Shown here: positions 228 to 64,000 of the stretch, piece after piece
Layout of the letters: the number at the start of each line of letters is the position of its first letter
How positions within the stretch are numbered: position 1 is the stretch's first letter
Assembly (NCBI GenBank): GCA_028873865.1
Contig: JAPPNI010000030.1
Location: 1-64,000 of the forward strand
Length of the DNA: 64,000 bases
From: Chloroflexota bacterium
GTDB taxonomy: Bacteria; Chloroflexota; Dehalococcoidia; Bin125
Direction of reading: 5' to 3'
Notes under the pieces: model-generated
Told to the model about the DNA's origin: nothing
What the model saw: the letters and a program-made list of their open reading frames with translations, nothing else
Databases searched by the model: none
Program-made: the position numbers and the translations under genes

Positions 228-254
228 TTAGCACTCGCAGCCTGTGAGTGCCAA
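228..254 (+). promoter_or_regulatory. CIRCE operator upstream of groES
   Basis: The inverted repeat TTAGCACTC-N9-GAGTGCCAA matches the CIRCE consensus with a single mismatch in the right arm (C for T). CIRCE is the binding site of the repressor HrcA, and hrcA lies in this window at 59362-60447. It sits 7 bp after the -10 box, so bound HrcA would cover the transcription start. Confidence 0.95.
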
Positions 255-312: not shown

Positions 313-2278
<1,966 letters not shown>

Positions 2279-22333: not shown

Positions 22334-23818
22334 ATGCCGACGGCGCAGGACAACACCAACCAATCCGATAAACCGGCCAGCCAGCCGATCGCCGACTACT
22401 CCCAGGCGGTTGACTGGTTGATGTCGTTTGCCGACTTCGAGCGTGGCTCGGGGCCCCGGCGAGCGAAGGGTGACTTCGCGCTGGAACGCATCCGCTCGAT
22501 CTTGCGCCGCCTTGGCGATCCGCAGCACGGTCGCCCCACGATCCACATCGCTGGCAGCAAAGGCAAGGGTTCGACCGCAGCCATCCTCGAATCGATCTTG
22601 CGTGCAGCCGGCTTCCGCACCGGATTGTTCACCAGCCCTCACCTACACGAGTTCACGGAGCGCATCCGGGTTCTCGGCCCACCTCTGCCCGAAGAAGAGT
22701 TCGCCCGCCTCTGTGAGCAGGTCCGCCACGTGGTCGAGGCCGAACTGGCCGAGGATCCCGGGCACATCAGCACCTTCGAAATCCTCACGGCGCTTTGCTT
22801 CCACGCGTTTCATGCCCACGACGTTGACGTCCAAATCATCGAGGTCGGCCTCGGGGGACGGCTCGACTGCACCAACGTCTTCTCCCGCACCGACGCAGCC
22901 GTGATCACCTCGCTCTCTTACGAGCACACCGACATCCTCGGCCACAAAATCACTCAGATCGCCGCAGAGAAGGCGGGCATCATCAGCGCGGCCTGCCGCC
23001 AGGTCATACTCGCGCCGCAGCGCTATCTGGAAGCGGCCGAGGTCGTGCGCAACGCAGCCGACGATGTTCCGGTCCCGTTGATCGATGTCGACGCCGCCTA
23101 CATCACCGCTCCAGCGGGCGTCGAGCCTTGGGGTCAGTGGTTCCGACTCCACCGGCGCGAACCACGTCCCGATGAGCCACCGCAATCTATGCATCTGCTA
23201 CCGCTCCTGGGTCGACACCAAATCGACAACGCCGTCACGGCGATTGCCACGATCGACGCTCTGGTCGCCGCCGGTACTGTCGCGGTGCCATCCGAGGCTC
23301 TGCATAAGGGATTGGCCACCGTGCGCTGGCCCGGCCGTCTCGAGTCGTTCGAGCTGCCGGAGGCATTTGGCCCCAACGAGCCTGCGGGGCCACCGACCGT
23401 CGTGATCGACGGTGCTCACAACGCCGAGTCGGTCCAGCGCGCGCTCGATGCCTGCCGCGAGTACTTCCCTCATGAGCAGCTTCACGTCATCTTCGGCGTG
23501 CTCGGCGACAAGGCGCTGAAGGACATGGCCAACATCATCCAGACCCGCAGTGCCCACATCTATGCCACGACATCCGAGCACCCACGCGCCCGGCCGCCGC
23601 AGCAGGTTGCCGATGCGTTCGCGGATTCCGACTGGCAAGGCGATGTCGCCGTCCATGCCGATCCCCACGCGGCGCTGAGCGCCGCCGGTCAGCGCGCCCG
23701 GGCCGACGACCTGATCCTCGTGGTCGGCTCCCTCTCTCTCGCCGCGGACGCGCGACGCTTCCTGAGCGCTCCAGCGCAAACGCACATCGTCCGCCGAGCT
23801 GAGGATCCGACCGTATGA
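22334..23818 (+). CDS. folC: Folylpolyglutamate synthase / dihydrofolate synthase
   Basis: Mur-ligase-family enzyme that adds glutamate to folates, and to dihydropteroate in bifunctional forms. The 494-residue chain has the P-loop IHIAGSKGKGST, the folate-binding TSPHLHEFTERIRV, the GLGGRLDCTNVF motif, SYEHTDILG, the KAGII lysine region, and the C-terminal-domain VVIDGAHNAESV. Length is at the upper end of the family because of a polar N-terminal extension of about 40 residues. The ATG at 22334 is preferred over a TTG at 22277 that lies within the promoter region. The stop overlaps the fabF start as ATGA, so the pair is coupled. Confidence 0.93.
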   Translation: MPTAQDNTNQSDKPASQPIADYSQAVDWLMSFADFERGSGPRRAKGDFALERIRSILRRLGDPQHGRPTIHIAGSKGKGSTAAILESILRAAGFRTGLFTSPHLHEFTERIRVLGPPLPEEEFARLCEQVRHVVEAELAEDPGHISTFEILTALCFHAFHAHDVDVQIIEVGLGGRLDCTNVFSRTDAAVITSLSYEHTDILGHKITQIAAEKAGIISAACRQVILAPQRYLEAAEVVRNAADDVPVPLIDVDAAYITAPAGVEPWGQWFRLHRREPRPDEPPQSMHLLPLLGRHQIDNAVTAIATIDALVAAGTVAVPSEALHKGLATVRWPGRLESFELPEAFGPNEPAGPPTVVIDGAHNAESVQRALDACREYFPHEQLHVIFGVLGDKALKDMANIIQTRSAHIYATTSEHPRARPPQQVADAFADSDWQGDVAVHADPHAALSAAGQRARADDLILVVGSLSLAADARRFLSAPAQTHIVRRAEDPTV

Positions 23819-25098
23819 CTGAGTCAGAGCCTGCCCCGGAACGAGCCGAACGCACCCGAGTCGTCGTCACTGGCATGGGGGCCGTCTCTCCATACGGCCC
23901 CGGCGTAGACCTGTTGTGGGACAAACTGCTCGCGGGAGAAAGCGCGATCAAGCCAATCGAGAACTTCGACATCTCCGGGTTCAGCTGCACGATTGGCGGC
24001 GAGATTCGCGATTTCGACGCCCGAGATTTCATCGATCGAAAATCCGCCCGCCGCATGGCTCGATTCACTCATTTCGCTGTCGCCGCCGCACGGGAAGCCA
24101 TCGAGAATGCACAACTCGACCTCGACTCGCTCGACCGGAGCCGGATCGGCGTTGTCCTGGGCAACGGGGCCGGCGGATACCCGGAGATCCAGGCCACCGC
24201 CAGCACGCTTTTCGATCGAGGCGGGATGCGCCTCGACCCGCTCTTCCTGCCCAAGGTGCTGCCGAACATGGCGGCCGCCAATATCGCCATGCAATTCGGC
24301 CTGCTGGGCTACAACACGACGGTCGTGACTGCCTGCGCCGCCGGTACCCAAGCGCTCGGAGATGCCACAAACGTAATCCGAAACGGGCAGGCCGACATCG
24401 TCATTACCGGCGGCACCGAGGCGGGATTCTGCCAGCTCGGACTCGGGGGATTCGCGGTCATGCGCGCGCTTTCTACCAAGAACGAGAACCCGACGGCCGC
24501 GTCGCGACCGTTCGACGCCGACCGCGACGGCTTCGTCCCCGGCGAGGGCGCCGGCATCATCGTGCTCGAGTCGGAAGAGTCGGCTCGGCGACGGGGCGTC
24601 AACTATCAGGTCGAACTGGCCGGTTTCGGCTCCTCAGCCGATGCCCACCACCTGGTCATGCCCGACGCCGATGGAGCCGGACCGATCCGGGCGATCAACT
24701 GGGCCATGGAGGACGCCGATATTCAGCCGGAGGAGATCGACTACGTCAATGCACACGGCACGTCAACGCCGCTCAACGATGCCTCCGAGACCCGCGCCAT
24801 CAAAATTGCGCTGGGCGAAGCGGCCCACAATGTCCCGGTGTCGTCGACCAAATCGATGATCGGTCACATCTTCGGAGGGGCAGGTGGACTGGAGTCGATT
24901 GCGGCGATCAAAGCCATCACCGACGGCAAAATCCACCCCACGATCAACTACACCACGCCGGATCCCGAGTGTGACCTCGACTACGTCCCCAACCAGTCTC
25001 GCCACGCTGAAGTCGATGCCGTGCTCAAGAACTCATTCGGCTTCGGCGGCCAGAACGCCTGTCTCGTCTTCCGCCGGATCGACGGCGCCCGAGCTTGA
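23815..25098 (+). CDS. fabF: 3-oxoacyl-[acyl-carrier-protein] synthase II
   Basis: Condensing enzyme of fatty acid elongation. The complete catalytic set is present: Cys174 in VVTACAAG, His314 in HGTSTPLND, Lys346 and His351 in STKSMIGHIFGGAGG, and the C-terminal NSFGFGGQN loop. The 427-residue length is normal. It overlaps folC by 4 bp. It serves as the active reference for the ketosynthase-like gene at 60636-61883, where all of these residues are replaced. No acyl carrier protein, fabD or fabG gene is adjacent. Confidence 0.96.
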   Translation: MTESEPAPERAERTRVVVTGMGAVSPYGPGVDLLWDKLLAGESAIKPIENFDISGFSCTIGGEIRDFDARDFIDRKSARRMARFTHFAVAAAREAIENAQLDLDSLDRSRIGVVLGNGAGGYPEIQATASTLFDRGGMRLDPLFLPKVLPNMAAANIAMQFGLLGYNTTVVTACAAGTQALGDATNVIRNGQADIVITGGTEAGFCQLGLGGFAVMRALSTKNENPTAASRPFDADRDGFVPGEGAGIIVLESEESARRRGVNYQVELAGFGSSADAHHLVMPDADGAGPIRAINWAMEDADIQPEEIDYVNAHGTSTPLNDASETRAIKIALGEAAHNVPVSSTKSMIGHIFGGAGGLESIAAIKAITDGKIHPTINYTTPDPECDLDYVPNQSRHAEVDAVLKNSFGFGGQNACLVFRRIDGARA

Positions 25099-58771: not shown

Positions 58772-59365
58772 CTACTCGGTAGCTTCTTCTGCTGCTTCGT
58801 CTGGTGTGTCTGTTGATTCGATCGAGCCGTCGCCGACCATCACCTGCGTCGCCCTCAGGATGCGACTCCCGACGGTGTATCCGGTGCGCAGGACGGCGAC
58901 GATCTCGTTGTGTCGTCCGGGCAGTTGCCCAACCGCTTCATGGAATTCGGGATCGAAGGACTGTTCAACCGTCTCGATCCGCTTGACCTGTTGGCGTAGC
59001 AGCAGGGCGTTGAGCTTCTGCGAGATCAGCTCGACACCCTGGCGCCACGGGTCGTCAGCGTTTGGGTCGTCCGCCGGTGCTTCGCGGTTGGCGCGTTCGA
59101 AGTCGTCGGCCAGATCGAGCAGGTCGAGCAGAATCGCGCGCTGCGACTGCTGAACCCGATCGCGCACGTCCTGGGCCGAGCGACGCTTGAGATTCTCGTA
59201 GTCGGCCTGGGCGCGCTGCCAGCCGGCATAGTTGCGCGCCGACTCCTCGCGCAGGGCCTCCAGCTCGTTCGCCGGCGCCTGAGAAACGTCGGTATCGGGT
59301 GCTGGTTCGACTACCTCGTCGGCCTGCTGCTCCGCCTGGTCAGTCGTCTGGCTGTCCTGGCTCAT
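58772..59365 (-). CDS. grpE: Nucleotide exchange factor GrpE
   Basis: Releases ADP from DnaK. The 197-residue chain has an acidic, disordered N-terminus, a long coiled-coil region (ELEALREESARNYAGWQRAQADYENLKRR in parts), the DLLDLADDFERA segment and a C-terminal beta-wing with FDPEFHEAVG and GYTVGSRILRATQVMV. The ATG at 59365 overlaps the hrcA stop as ATGA. A longer frame reaching 59545 runs inside hrcA and is rejected. Confidence 0.95.
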   Translation of the reverse strand: MSQDSQTTDQAEQQADEVVEPAPDTDVSQAPANELEALREESARNYAGWQRAQADYENLKRRSAQDVRDRVQQSQRAILLDLLDLADDFERANREAPADDPNADDPWRQGVELISQKLNALLLRQQVKRIETVEQSFDPEFHEAVGQLPGRHNEIVAVLRTGYTVGSRILRATQVMVGDGSIESTDTPDEAAEEATE

Positions 59366-60447
59366 CGACTGACTCCGTAGACCGAGTCGATCATCTCCCG
59401 GAGCAAACGGGAGTAAAAGCGCGCAGCGGCGATGCTGCGCGGATAGTTCATCCGCGTCGGTCCGATCACACCGACGTAGCCGGGGATCTCGGGCGAGCTC
59501 GCAGAAGTAGTAGAGGAGTGGTAGGGAGCCAGTACGAGAGAGCATTCCTGGAGCAGCTCGGTCGGGTGATCGTCTCCGATCAACACGTGCATGCCGCCCT
59601 CGACCGTGACCTCGTCAATGACCGAATGCGGGATCAAGTGTTCGGAGGCGTGCTGGTCGACCAGCTCGATCAGCTCCAGTGATCGCTCCGGCTCCTGCTG
59701 GAACTCCGGCTGCGCCATCATGCCGCCCAGCCCGGCGATCGACGGTACGCCGGCGCGTTCGGCGTCGCGATCCAGCACCTGCGCCAGCGTCTCCAGCACG
59801 AAGTGCTCGGCCGGATGCGTATCGGGCGTCTCAATCGCCTGGCGCGCCGCTTCGCGAACGTCGGGCGCCGAGCGACCGCGCAGCATCCAAGACAGTCGGG
59901 TCGACAGATCGTCCAGTTCATCCACTTCAATTGGCTGGGGTAGCGGCATCAGCTGCCGGATCATCCGCGCTTCCTGGACCACAACGATCATCAGAACCAA
60001 GAGCTCGTTCAGCGAGATCAGTTCTACCTGGCGGACACGCAGCCGCTCGGGATGGGGCGGCGCGACGATCACCAGCAGACCGAGCGATCGGGCCAGCACA
60101 TTGGCTGCCAGCTCGACCCATTCCTCGACCGAGGGAGCTGCCTGGAAAAACTGGTGGCGGACCTGCGCCTGTTCGGCCAGACCAAGCTCGGCGTGGCCCA
60201 TCAGCGACTGGACGAAGTGGCGGTAGCCGCGATTCGAGGGCACTCGACCAGCGGAGGTATGCGGATGGGTGAGATAACCCTCCTGCTCGAGGGCGTGCAT
60301 CTCATGTCGTATCGTGGCGGGCGACGCCGGCAGCGCGTACTTTTCCACCACATGGCGCGACGCGACCGGCGTCGCCGTCTCGATGTAGTCCTGGATGACG
60401 AGCTGCAGAATGCCGGCGCGTCGGTCTGACAACTGTTCGGAGATCAT
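59362..60447 (-). CDS. hrcA: Heat-inducible transcription repressor HrcA
   Basis: Represses heat-shock operons by binding CIRCE; folding of HrcA depends on GroEL, linking it to chaperone supply. The 361-residue chain has the N-terminal winged helix (YIETATPVASRHVVEKYAL, SPATIRHEMHALEQEGYL, HTSAGRVPSNRGYR) and the C-terminal motif GYVGVIGPTRMNYPR, all typical. It is first in its operon, 48 bp after a CIRCE element, so it represses itself as well as groESL. Confidence 0.97.
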   Translation of the reverse strand: MISEQLSDRRAGILQLVIQDYIETATPVASRHVVEKYALPASPATIRHEMHALEQEGYLTHPHTSAGRVPSNRGYRHFVQSLMGHAELGLAEQAQVRHQFFQAAPSVEEWVELAANVLARSLGLLVIVAPPHPERLRVRQVELISLNELLVLMIVVVQEARMIRQLMPLPQPIEVDELDDLSTRLSWMLRGRSAPDVREAARQAIETPDTHPAEHFVLETLAQVLDRDAERAGVPSIAGLGGMMAQPEFQQEPERSLELIELVDQHASEHLIPHSVIDEVTVEGGMHVLIGDDHPTELLQECSLVLAPYHSSTTSASSPEIPGYVGVIGPTRMNYPRSIAAARFYSRLLREMIDSVYGVSR

Positions 60448-60495: not shown

Positions 60496-60522
60496 TTAGC
60501 ACTCTCCTACCGAGAGTGCTAA
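60496..60522 (-). promoter_or_regulatory. CIRCE operator upstream of hrcA
   Basis: A perfect TTAGCACTC-N9-GAGTGCTAA inverted repeat, identical to the consensus arms. It lies between the hrcA promoter and its start codon, 7 bp after the -10 box. HrcA binding here would repress the whole hrcA-grpE-dnaK-dnaJ-prmA operon. Confidence 0.97.
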
Positions 60523-60635: not shown

Positions 60636-61883
60636 ATGGTCAGCGGTGCGTCCCATCGGGGACAGTTCGACGAATCTCTCGGCGAGCGCCGACGTGTGGT
60701 GATCACCGGGCTGGGCGCCGTGTCGGCCGCCGGAGGCAGCGCCGCAGACCTCTGGACCGCGCTCTCCGAGGGTCGCGTGTGCACCTCACCGCTGACGACC
60801 TTCGACGCGCCCCGAGCAGCTGCGGCCGGACAGGTCGACCGCGACTGGCACGGTCCCTCGGGCGCTCCGGATTGGCTGCTGGCACGGATGGATCGCGCTT
60901 CACGGCTGGCGCTGGACGCCGCGATTCAGGCCCAGACCGATGCGCGGATTGAGTTCAATCAACAGAACGCCTTCGCCGTCGGAGCCGTGAGCGGAATCGC
61001 GCACCCGGGAACCGGCGATGATTGGGCGGCGTTGGGCTCCGGGCTCTCCGGCGCTTCGCTGGGACTGAACATCGCCGGACCGGTTTTCACCGTCGCCATG
61101 GGCGGCGCTTCCGGCCTCGCCTCGGTCGTGCTAGCCACCCAGATGATCCGCACGGGGGTTATCCGCGCCGCGCTGGCGATCGGCGCTGAGGCGCCGCTTC
61201 GAGCCGATATCTGGAACGCGTATGAGTCCGCGGGTTTACTCGACTCCAGCGGCGATCTCAATGCGCAGCGTCCATTCGACGCCAACCGTCAGGGCATGAT
61301 TCTCGGCGAGGGCGCCGCCGCTTTGATGCTCGAAGATCGACAGCTCGCGACGCAGCGAGGGATTCACATCTACGCGGAGATCGGCGGCGAGGCGCTGACC
61401 GCCGGTCCGATGGGGGACGGGCAGGGACCCACCGATGTCGAGGTGGCCCGACGCGCAACCGGCGATGCATTGCTCGGCGGCGAGATCGCTCCGGCAGATG
61501 TCGACGTGGTGGTGACCGCAGGACTGGGGTTGCCCCGGGGCGACGAGCGAGAGACCGACGTGATCGAGCGAGCCTTCGGTCGGCGCACGCTCGACATGTA
61601 CGCCGCCGCCGTCACTCCGAACGTTGGCTATACGGTCGGTGCATCGGGAGCACTCACGGCGGTGGCGGCCACGCAGATCGTCGACCAGCGTCAGATCCCG
61701 CCGCACGCCACGTTCGAGCAGGAAGACATCGCCTGTCGGCTGGGGTTCGTCCAGAAGCTCTACCGGGACCGGATCGTCGGCGTCGCCACCGCCGCCTACG
61801 GCGCGCACGGACAGAACGCCGCCCTGGTTCTCCTGCCCCACCAGGCCGAAGCCGGCGACGAACTTCCCTTGCTAGCCAACTAG
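60636..61883 (+). CDS. Ketosynthase-fold protein lacking all catalytic residues (KAS II / chain-length-factor-like)
   Basis: A 415-residue thiolase-fold protein. Ketosynthase landmarks are clear: RRVVITGLGAVSAAG at the start, QRPFDANRQGMILGEGAAALMLED in the middle, and a C-terminal AAYGAHGQNAALVL in place of the NSFGFGGQN loop. Compared with the active FabF at 23815, the catalytic Cys is Gly157 (MGGASG), the first His is Ala295, the Lys is Thr327 and the second His is Tyr332. Polyketide chain-length factors also lack the Cys, but usually carry Gln there and sit beside an active ketosynthase; this gene stands alone. A structural or partner role is possible. GAGAGG lies 8 bp before the ATG. Confidence 0.85.
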   Translation: MVSGASHRGQFDESLGERRRVVITGLGAVSAAGGSAADLWTALSEGRVCTSPLTTFDAPRAAAAGQVDRDWHGPSGAPDWLLARMDRASRLALDAAIQAQTDARIEFNQQNAFAVGAVSGIAHPGTGDDWAALGSGLSGASLGLNIAGPVFTVAMGGASGLASVVLATQMIRTGVIRAALAIGAEAPLRADIWNAYESAGLLDSSGDLNAQRPFDANRQGMILGEGAAALMLEDRQLATQRGIHIYAEIGGEALTAGPMGDGQGPTDVEVARRATGDALLGGEIAPADVDVVVTAGLGLPRGDERETDVIERAFGRRTLDMYAAAVTPNVGYTVGASGALTAVAATQIVDQRQIPPHATFEQEDIACRLGFVQKLYRDRIVGVATAAYGAHGQNAALVLLPHQAEAGDELPLLAN

Positions 61884-61932
61884 AACCCCAGCTGCGTCTG
61901 CGCATATGTCACCTGCTCCGTAGGCTGTGCCT

Positions 61933-62586
61933 ATGGATATCGCCTGGTACGGACATGCCGCGTTTCGCCTGCGTGGTCGCGAAGCGGCCGTGGTCATGGA
62001 TCCCTGCTCGCCGGAGACGGGCTTCCGACTCAACCGTCCTTCGGCCGACATCGTTACCGTCTCGCGCGAACACGATTCCTCGCACAACTGGGTCGAGGGC
62101 GTGACCCTGGAGTCCTCCGGACTCCAGCGCACGCTGGATGCGCCCGGCGAGTACGAGATCAAGCGCGTGCTGGCGACGGGGGTTCGCACTCTCGGGGCCG
62201 ACGGAACGCGAAACATCTCGTTCGTCGTCACGATCGACGAGGTGATCGTGGCTCACCTCGGCGATCTGCAGGAGATGCCGGAGCGAGCCGCAATGGAGGA
62301 ATTGCAACGAGCCGACGTGGTCCTCCTGCCCTGTGGCGGCGGATCTCACCTCTCCCCTCAGGCTGCCGCGGGGGTCGCAGCGGTGATTGCTGCCCCCCTC
62401 GTCATTCCCATGCTCTACCAGCCGGAGGGCGCGGAAGACGTCCATACCGGCCTCGAGCCACTCTCCGTGTTCCTCCAGGAGATGGGCCTGACCGTCGAGC
62501 CTCCGTCCGACAACCACATCAACGTGACCCGTTCGTCACTTCCCTCGGCGCCGACTGTGGCGCCGCTGCTGGCCAGAGGAGCCTGA
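61933..62586 (+). CDS. MBL-fold (UlaG-like) metal-dependent hydrolase, altered metal motif
   Basis: A 217-residue metallo-beta-lactamase-fold protein. It begins MDIAWYGHAAFRLRG and has DAPGEYEI, VAHLGDLQEMP, and VVLLPCGGGSHLSPQAA, all as in the short UlaG/YtkL-like family. The metal motif normally reads SHxHxxH; here it is SREHDSSH, with Arg at the first His and one extra residue, so metal binding may be altered. The ATG at 61933 matches the family start; a GTG two codons earlier is possible. It ends 1 bp before the hydrolase gene and is probably co-transcribed with it. Confidence 0.82.
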   Translation: MDIAWYGHAAFRLRGREAAVVMDPCSPETGFRLNRPSADIVTVSREHDSSHNWVEGVTLESSGLQRTLDAPGEYEIKRVLATGVRTLGADGTRNISFVVTIDEVIVAHLGDLQEMPERAAMEELQRADVVLLPCGGGSHLSPQAAAGVAAVIAAPLVIPMLYQPEGAEDVHTGLEPLSVFLQEMGLTVEPPSDNHINVTRSSLPSAPTVAPLLARGA

Positions 62587-62587
62587 C

Positions 62588-64000
62588 ATGGGTGAACAGC
62601 ATTCGCAGCCCGAGTTTGAGGTCGTCATTCAACGCAACCGACGCGTCTCGATGCGCGACGGTGTGACCCTGGCCACCGACGTCTACTTGCCTGCTCGCGA
62701 CGGCGTTGCGCTCGACGGTCGGTGGCCGACGCTGCTCACCCGGACCCCCTATGACAAGCTCGGGTTCGCCGCCGACGGCGAATGGTGGGCGAGCCGGGGC
62801 TACGCCCGGGTCATGCAGGACGTCCGCGGCCGCTTCGCCTCGGAAGGCGACTTCTACCTGCTCAAGAACGAAGCAGAAGACGGCTACGACACGATCGAGT
62901 GGCTCGCCGAGCAACCCTGGTCGACGGGCAAGGTCGGTACCGTCGGCACCTCCTACATGGGCTGGGTGCAGTCGGCCGCGGCGACACAGAATCCACCGCA
63001 CCTCTCGGCGATGTGGGTGAACCAGGGCGCCTTCAACGGGCTCACCTCGTCGCTGCGGCAGGGCGGCGCGCTGGAGCTGCGCTGGCTGGCCTGGGCTTTC
63101 TGGAATGCACCTGTCAGCCCCGAGGCCATGTCGGACCCGTCGCTGTACGCGGCGCTCGACCAGGCCGCCGTGGACCTGCGCGGCTATCTCGATCGCCTCC
63201 CCTGGCGAGACGGCGACACCCCTCTCGCCCAGACCCAGGATTACGAGCGCTGGGCGATTGACCTGCTCACGCTTGCGCGCGAGGACGACTGGCTCTGGCA
63301 GTTGCCGTCAATGAATTTTGAGCGATTCATCGGCCAGACCGCCGATGTGCCGAGCGTCTACTCGGGTGGCTGGTACGACAGCTACACCAGAGCCACGACC
63401 GAGTCGTTTATGGCCTTTTCCGAGGCGATGTCGTCGCCGCAATACCTGCTCATGGGTCCCTGGACACATGGTGAGGTCACTCTCGACCGCACGTGGTCGG
63501 GCGATGTCGACTTCGGTCTCACCGCGCCGACATCGGGCAATCTCGCGCCGAGCATCTCCGACCTGCGCCTGCGCTTCTTCGACCACACGCTGAAGGACCT
63601 CGACAGCGGCTGGGCGGAGATGGCACCGGTCACGATGTTCGTGATGGGCGGAGGCAGCGGCCGCCGAATTCCCTCAGGCCGGATGGATCACGGTGGCGAG
63701 TGGCGCGAAGAGTCGTCGTGGCCCCCGGCTGCTGCTGAGCAGGTCGACTGGTTCCTCCAGCCCGGCGGCGGACTGGCCACCGAGCCAGCGGGTGAAGATG
63801 GAGGTTCCTCCAGTTATCTCTTCGACCCGACGAACCCGGTTCCGTCGATCTCTGCCAACGTGTCGTCCCTGCGCGAATACGCGCCTGAGGATCCGACGCT
63901 GAAGTCGCAGATCTGGCCACCGACTCAGCGCTCTCGAGAGCTGATCCTGCCCGGGGGCGCCGACCAGCGCACGCGTCCCGACGTGATGGGCGCCGAGGCA
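62588..64000 (+). CDS. CocE/NonD family hydrolase (X-Pro dipeptidyl-peptidase-like), cut by window end
   Basis: The first 471 residues of an alpha/beta hydrolase; no stop codon occurs before the window ends. The family start MRDGVTLATDVYLPA is followed by LLTRTPYDK, YARVMQDVRGRFASEGDFY, and the nucleophile motif GTSYMGW with the catalytic Ser. An acid/His region is suggested by VYSGGWYDSYT and LLMGPWTHGE. The C-terminal jelly-roll domain would begin near residue 370. Members cleave esters, amides or beta-lactam-like substrates such as cocaine or glutaryl-cephalosporins; the natural substrate here is unknown. It is transcribed after the MBL gene. Confidence 0.9.
   Translation, partial: MGEQHSQPEFEVVIQRNRRVSMRDGVTLATDVYLPARDGVALDGRWPTLLTRTPYDKLGFAADGEWWASRGYARVMQDVRGRFASEGDFYLLKNEAEDGYDTIEWLAEQPWSTGKVGTVGTSYMGWVQSAAATQNPPHLSAMWVNQGAFNGLTSSLRQGGALELRWLAWAFWNAPVSPEAMSDPSLYAALDQAAVDLRGYLDRLPWRDGDTPLAQTQDYERWAIDLLTLAREDDWLWQLPSMNFERFIGQTADVPSVYSGGWYDSYTRATTESFMAFSEAMSSPQYLLMGPWTHGEVTLDRTWSGDVDFGLTAPTSGNLAPSISDLRLRFFDHTLKDLDSGWAEMAPVTMFVMGGGSGRRIPSGRMDHGGEWREESSWPPAAAEQVDWFLQPGGGLATEPAGEDGGSSSYLFDPTNPVPSISANVSSLREYAPEDPTLKSQIWPPTQRSRELILPGGADQRTRPDVMGAEA

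Follow-up and report, generated by a model that had tools for sequence, protein, structure and literature searches.

A free-standing protein of the ketosynthase (KASII) fold that has lost all four catalytic residues is encoded beside the heat-shock repressor gene hrcA in a family of Dehalococcoidia, where it is under strong purifying selection and is neither a chance product nor a one-off. This pseudo-ketosynthase (pseudo-KS) was recognised in a stretch of 64,000 nucleotides from a Chloroflexota bacterium, called the window in the following (Table 1). It is best read as a descendant of a FabF-type ketosynthase and, judging from its sequence, very probably works by binding and not by catalysis. 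What is new is the free-standing lineage and its regulatory and genomic setting, not the category, since FabF paralogues of anammox bacteria and the pseudo-KS domain of PfaB are precedents.

Table 1. Positions of the features of the window that are discussed in the text
Feature	Position	Strand	Remarks
Second CIRCE	228..254		1 mismatch; upstream of groEL
groEL (Cpn60)	650..2278		
Active FabF, comparator	23815..25098	+	Cys174, His314, Lys346, His351
hrcA, heat-shock repressor	59362..60447	-	PF01628 3e-35; divergent from pseudo-KS
Perfect CIRCE (HrcA operator)	60496..60522		TTAGCACTC-N9-GAGTGCTAA; divergent hrcA/pseudo-KS intergenic region; 0 expected by chance
Pseudo-ketosynthase (pseudo-KS, KASII fold)	60636..61883	+	415 aa; Gly157, Ala295, Thr327, Tyr332 at catalytic positions
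MBL-fold protein (PF13483)	61927..62586	+	43 bp downstream of pseudo-KS
CocE/NonD-family hydrolase	62588..64000	+	runs off window; next gene in genus and in genome G017

Results

An intact ketosynthase fold without catalytic residues

The open reading frame of the pseudo-KS is intact over its whole length and free of internal stops. Pfam matches both ketoacyl-synt (PF00109, 5.5e-25) and Ketoacyl-synt_C (PF02801, 1e-13) and detects no AT domain in this free-standing frame, and the NCBIfam fabF score of 174.4 bits lies below the cut-off of 493.75 bits. When the protein was aligned over its length with the active FabF of the window, the Cys-His-Lys-His tetrad of the latter was matched, in this order, by the Gly, Ala, Thr and Tyr residues given in Table 1, exactly as had been predicted; the same catalytic columns were obtained with many active ketosynthases, and local realignment against the window FabF recovered no Cys or His at the catalytic sites. 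The fold-defining motifs, which were said to remain, are indeed in place: RPFD, GEGAA, GASGA and GQNAA stand in register with the window FabF. The genome holds four other ketosynthases, the window FabF among them, and each of them carries Cys-His-Lys-His.

An AF2 model of the pseudo-KS was built from a 19-sequence alignment (pLDDT 65, pTM 0.76, which corresponds to moderate confidence), and its top Foldseek matches are FabF structures with TM values of 0.75-0.78. The predicted structure confirms the thiolase-like KASII fold and is too weak for reading the pocket or the interface.

Conservation and selection in the family of the window

The family of the window (f1) comprises 20 genomes in five genera, 15 genomes belonging to the genus of the window and 5 to four other genera; from the isolate names we take most of them to be sponge-derived. 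Each of the 20 encodes a full-length orthologue of the pseudo-KS (49-86% identity), and the catalytic sites are replaced throughout: Gly or Ala stands for the Cys, Ala for the first His, Thr or Ser for the Lys, and Tyr, Phe or, once, His in the last position. The original prediction had named a coherent clade in related genomes, sharing these substitutions, as the finding that would support it, and such a clade does exist. Within the genus the dN/dS of the pseudo-KS against ten congeners is 0.08-0.21, which is mostly above the values of hrcA and CocE next to it, yet is far from neutral.

Conservation in f1 extends over the N-terminal VVITGxGAV strand, the 136-150 region (dimer strand and nucleophile elbow) and GEGAAxLMLEDR, and a new motif set, GPxGDGxxPTD and TPxxGY, has appeared around the former gate and mouth. 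The segments of low entropy are the dimer strand with the nucleophile elbow and the former gate, names that we assign from general knowledge of the KASII fold.

Distribution and phylogeny

A profile search with an alignment of all pseudo-KSs over 393 Dehalococcoidia genomes detected the protein in 29 of them: besides all 20 f1 genomes, in six of family f17, two of f66 and one of f50. The catalytic positions read Ala-Ser/Thr-Lys-His in f17, Gly-Tyr-Lys-His in f66 and Pro-Gly-Gln-Phe in f50. Beneath these 29 proteins there is a gap in the scores (from 3e-125 to about 1e-114), and among the next-best matches below it all 14 loci that were read have Cys-His-Lys-His. Outside Dehalococcoidia, the Chloroflexota genomes that were sampled showed no pseudo-KS, in a search that scored only the top few candidates of each genome and that distant ones may escape. 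For one orthologue from f66 the match to T. thermophilus KASII reaches 3e-82.

Trees were calculated with IQ-TREE (C20 PMSF) from three row sets. In each set a single branch had the pseudo-KSs on one side (support 93/84, 90/85 and 96/92), and the actinomycete chain-length factors (CLFs) formed a clade of their own (100/100). A position of the pseudo-KS inside the CLFs was considered and not adopted: f1 and the CLFs stood apart in all trees, and we do not claim exclusion, the AU test having given p values of 0.195 and 0.26 for their union. With this union not rejected, the common gene order is a better guide to the origin of the pseudo-KS than the tree alone.

The hrcA locus, its operator and the gene order

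In f1 the genes hrcA-grpE-dnaK-dnaJ-prmA are divergent from the pseudo-KS, which is followed by the MBL-fold gene. The gap between hrcA and the pseudo-KS is 188 bp long and contains the 27-bp CIRCE about 114 bp upstream of the start codon of the pseudo-KS; this operator is kept across f1 with 0-2 mismatches and is present at the f66, f17 and f50 loci too. A promoter and terminator scan came out empty, with no promoter-like site. The operator and its position predict that the pseudo-KS is controlled by HrcA through CIRCE, which we regard as likely. The CIRCE upstream of groEL is the only other one in the window. Our search of the literature on hrcA/CIRCE together with fabH, or on this protein in Chloroflexi, returned nothing.

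The order at the f66 loci is hrcA, fabH - pseudo-KS - MBL, in f17 (genome G208) and in f50 it is hrcA, fabH - pseudo-KS, and in the families without pseudo-KS it is often hrcA, fabH - MBL or hrcA, MBL. Some copies of f17 lie away from hrcA. The hrcA loci of two f50 genomes differ from each other (L118/L148, in genomes G128 and G087): one has fabH-folC-fabF, with an active FabF, and the other fabH-pseudo-KS-folC. Near the pseudo-KS of two f17 genomes (L106, L108) there is a short protein that looks to us like DUF302, and an enoyl-CoA hydratase-like gene adjoins the pseudo-KS at L051 and L106.

The protein had been called solitary. This holds insofar as no carrier protein, ketosynthase or ketoreductase adjoins it, and no ketosynthase or ACP gene stands beside it in the f1 genomes examined; however, it has a conserved context, consisting of hrcA with CIRCE and the MBL-fold gene, and the solitary state is that of f1 only.

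A second gene without its active site

In both f66 genomes that have a pseudo-KS, and in those f1 genomes for which there are data, the MBL-fold gene comes directly after the pseudo-KS. In all f1 genomes read, its product no longer has the first His or the Asp of the HxHxDH motif, the last His is gone as well (MHY has become MLY or MLH), and HLGD is retained; the His residues are kept in most of its relatives elsewhere in Dehalococcoidia. Its dN/dS of 0.08-0.13 indicates purifying selection. The strangest feature of the locus is that two adjoining genes, both without active sites, have both been retained.

Genes of fatty-acid synthesis

By profile search, with positive-control genomes included, none of the 20 f1 genomes had a fabH match above the TIGR00747 cut-off, as compared to 16 of 41 genomes of other families, so f1 seems to be without a canonical FabH. 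Nevertheless, the pseudo-KS is not to be inferred as a substitute for FabH, and we disfavour it as a replacement, because it coexists with fabH in three families (f17, f66 and f50) and many families have neither. At another locus (L010, G000:C10:140782-145281) genes that we read from their sequences as SDR/FabG-like and FabD-like accompany two adjoining ketosynthases, both with Cys-His-Lys-His and the first of them long-branched; this may possibly be a second fatty-acid or polyketide system.

Loss of ACP docking and of the acyl gate

The docking residues were compared in E. coli FabF numbering, with the roles in the AcpP-FabF interface taken from PMC7138838, according to which Lys65, Arg68, Arg128 and Arg206 serve in ACP docking, and Asp265 and Phe400 form part of the gate. 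These are replaced in nearly all pseudo-KSs and largely kept in the active ketosynthases of the class, which mostly retain Lys65, Arg68, Lys/Arg69, Arg128, Asp265 and the GFGG gate. In f1 there is mostly Trp or Asp at 65, Ala or Gly at 68, Gly at both 206 and 265, and a GAHG-like gate. The 112-135 loop (E. coli numbering), a part of the dimer/ACP face of KASII, is deleted in f1, f17 and f50. The f66 proteins have kept the GFGG gate and lost the docking residues.

Discussion

Comparison with known systems

The original prediction saw in this protein a possible undescribed pseudo-ketosynthase class. It is a coherent clade, apart from the actinomycete CLFs in the tree, but the word undescribed was too strong in view of PMC2649909, PMC12895367 and chain C of PDB 9s5h. 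From Kuenenia stuttgartiensis, FabF paralogues in which every catalytic residue is exchanged were reported in 2009 (PMC2649909); Kuste3606, Kuste2805 and Kuste3348 are anammox paralogues whose active site is replaced. Like the pseudo-KS, these anammox proteins have a KASII fold in which other residues stand for the Cys and the two His, and in some of them for the Phe of the gate; their genes lie in large FAS clusters, whereas the pseudo-KS is found at the hrcA locus without ketosynthase or ACP. Chain C of 9s5h, the second-best PDB sequence match of the pseudo-KS, has V/N/K/E at the catalytic sites and R at the gate, which is the pattern published for Kuste3606, and from this pattern we infer that it is probably an anammox protein; the same entry includes another ketosynthase chain. 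In the tree this chain was placed elsewhere than f1, and their union was neither rejected nor supported (p-AU 0.115).

The CLFs (KS-beta, e.g. the actinorhodin CLF, 1tqy_B) share with the pseudo-KS the loss of the catalytic Cys/His and of the ACP-docking residues in a retained fold. They were expected to have Gln at the Cys site, and three of the four checked do so (Q-D-K-R), the fourth having Gly as in the pseudo-KS (G-D-K-R). Unlike the f1 proteins, the CLFs keep the Lys, Asp265 and the 120-135 loop, and they are encoded beside KS-alpha and ACP, which is not the case of the pseudo-KS in f1. In the Iga11-Iga12 structure the ACP contacts the CLF (PMC8358021). The pseudo-KS domain of PfaB (KS'), without the Cys-His-His triad and the ACP-binding motifs, has been proposed to be a structural scaffold (PMC12895367); it is set apart by description, being a domain of reduced length that PUFA synthases carry in fusion with an acyltransferase, while the pseudo-KS is full-length and free-standing. 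FabF/KASII is the parent family according to the best PDB and Foldseek matches, and it is the catalytic tetrad, the gate and the ACP-docking patch of this family that the pseudo-KS does not have. The CIRCE/hrcA context, the co-degenerate MBL-fold protein, the fabH neighbour in the relatives, the f1 genomes without fabH and the lost docking patch are additions to the original prediction.

Possible function

Since the chemistry and the ACP docking have been lost and the fold has been retained, a CLF-like or scaffold role gives the best fit. The complete reading, to which we assign about an even chance, is that of a FabF-derived protein without catalysis, CLF-like or a scaffold, which probably belongs to the HrcA regulon and acts by binding. 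Such a subunit might use the conserved dimer strand of KASII to pair with an active ketosynthase, or with itself together with the MBL-fold protein. The candidate partners are the MBL-fold protein and the four intact ketosynthases of the genome, among them the FabF that the original prediction had named as a possible partner. The heterodimer with an active ketosynthase can be suggested only tentatively as the specific mode. It counts against the complete reading that no ketosynthase or ACP gene adjoins in f1, that the deletion of the 112-135 loop could weaken the canonical pairing, and that the MBL-fold gene does not adjoin the pseudo-KS in f17 or f50. HrcA would set the level of the pseudo-KS alongside the DnaK and GroEL chaperones, and the protein may thereby adjust or protect fatty-acid synthesis under stress. 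The most elaborate form of this proposal, a heat-shock-controlled FAS accessory in which the pseudo-KS and the co-degenerate MBL-fold protein would bind a lipid intermediate or one of the active ketosynthases and link membrane-lipid synthesis to HrcA/DnaK in a family where no FabH was detected, appears rather unlikely to us.

The two genes might instead encode a two-component non-catalytic complex, a scaffold or ligand sensor unrelated to the FAS ketosynthases and left over from an enzymatic fabH-KS-MBL cassette. Their direct succession in f1 and in both f66 genomes argues for it, as does the purifying selection on two f1 genes which have both lost their catalytic residues, but the pseudo-KSs of f17 and f50 have no adjoining MBL-fold gene and many families have this gene beside hrcA and no pseudo-KS, so that such a complex is doubtful. 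It is improbable that the protein has gained a different enzymatic activity in a remodelled pocket, where the conserved polar residues Tyr322, Asp261, His357 and Asp303/Glu306 would substitute for Cys-His-His: although the strongly conserved new motifs encircle the former gate and the purifying selection is deep, the elbow reads GGASG or AAASG and shows no recognisable nucleophile motif, the patch for ACP docking is gone, and the residues vary from family to family (G/A-A-T/S-Y, A-S/T-K-H, G-Y-K-H, P-G-Q-F).

The failure to detect fabH in f1, together with the position of the pseudo-KS where relatives have fabH-pseudo-KS, would suit a KSQ-like malonyl-ACP decarboxylase supplying acetyl-ACP starters. 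KSQ-type decarboxylation is, however, understood to require the active-site His residues. Both His have been described as indispensable (PMC2649909), and the pseudo-KS has lost both of them along with the Lys and the ACP-docking residues; moreover, pseudo-KS and fabH occur together in f17, f66 and f50, and many fabH-less families have no pseudo-KS, which makes this activity very improbable. Finally, the missing catalytic residues are what would be expected of a decaying pseudogene or an assembly artefact. The intact full-length frame in 20 genomes of five genera, the low dN/dS within the genus and the conserved synteny leave hardly any room for this explanation, which we reject for f1, and the one-off decaying copy, considered in the original prediction as the outcome that would overturn it, is refuted by the same observations.

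CLFs, or fused domains within biosynthetic clusters, are the main forms in which ketosynthases devoid of catalytic residues are known. Here a free-standing pseudo-KS is held by selection at a chaperone operator, beside a second protein without an active site of its own, and related families keep stages of partial loss in the same place (G-Y-K-H and A-S/T-K-H, then none). They offer a natural series in which to ask what role is left to a ketosynthase fold after it has lost its chemistry and its ACP docking, and whether HrcA is connected to fatty-acid synthesis; a related question, open to testing, is how these uncultured Chloroflexota start this synthesis when no FabH can be identified in them.
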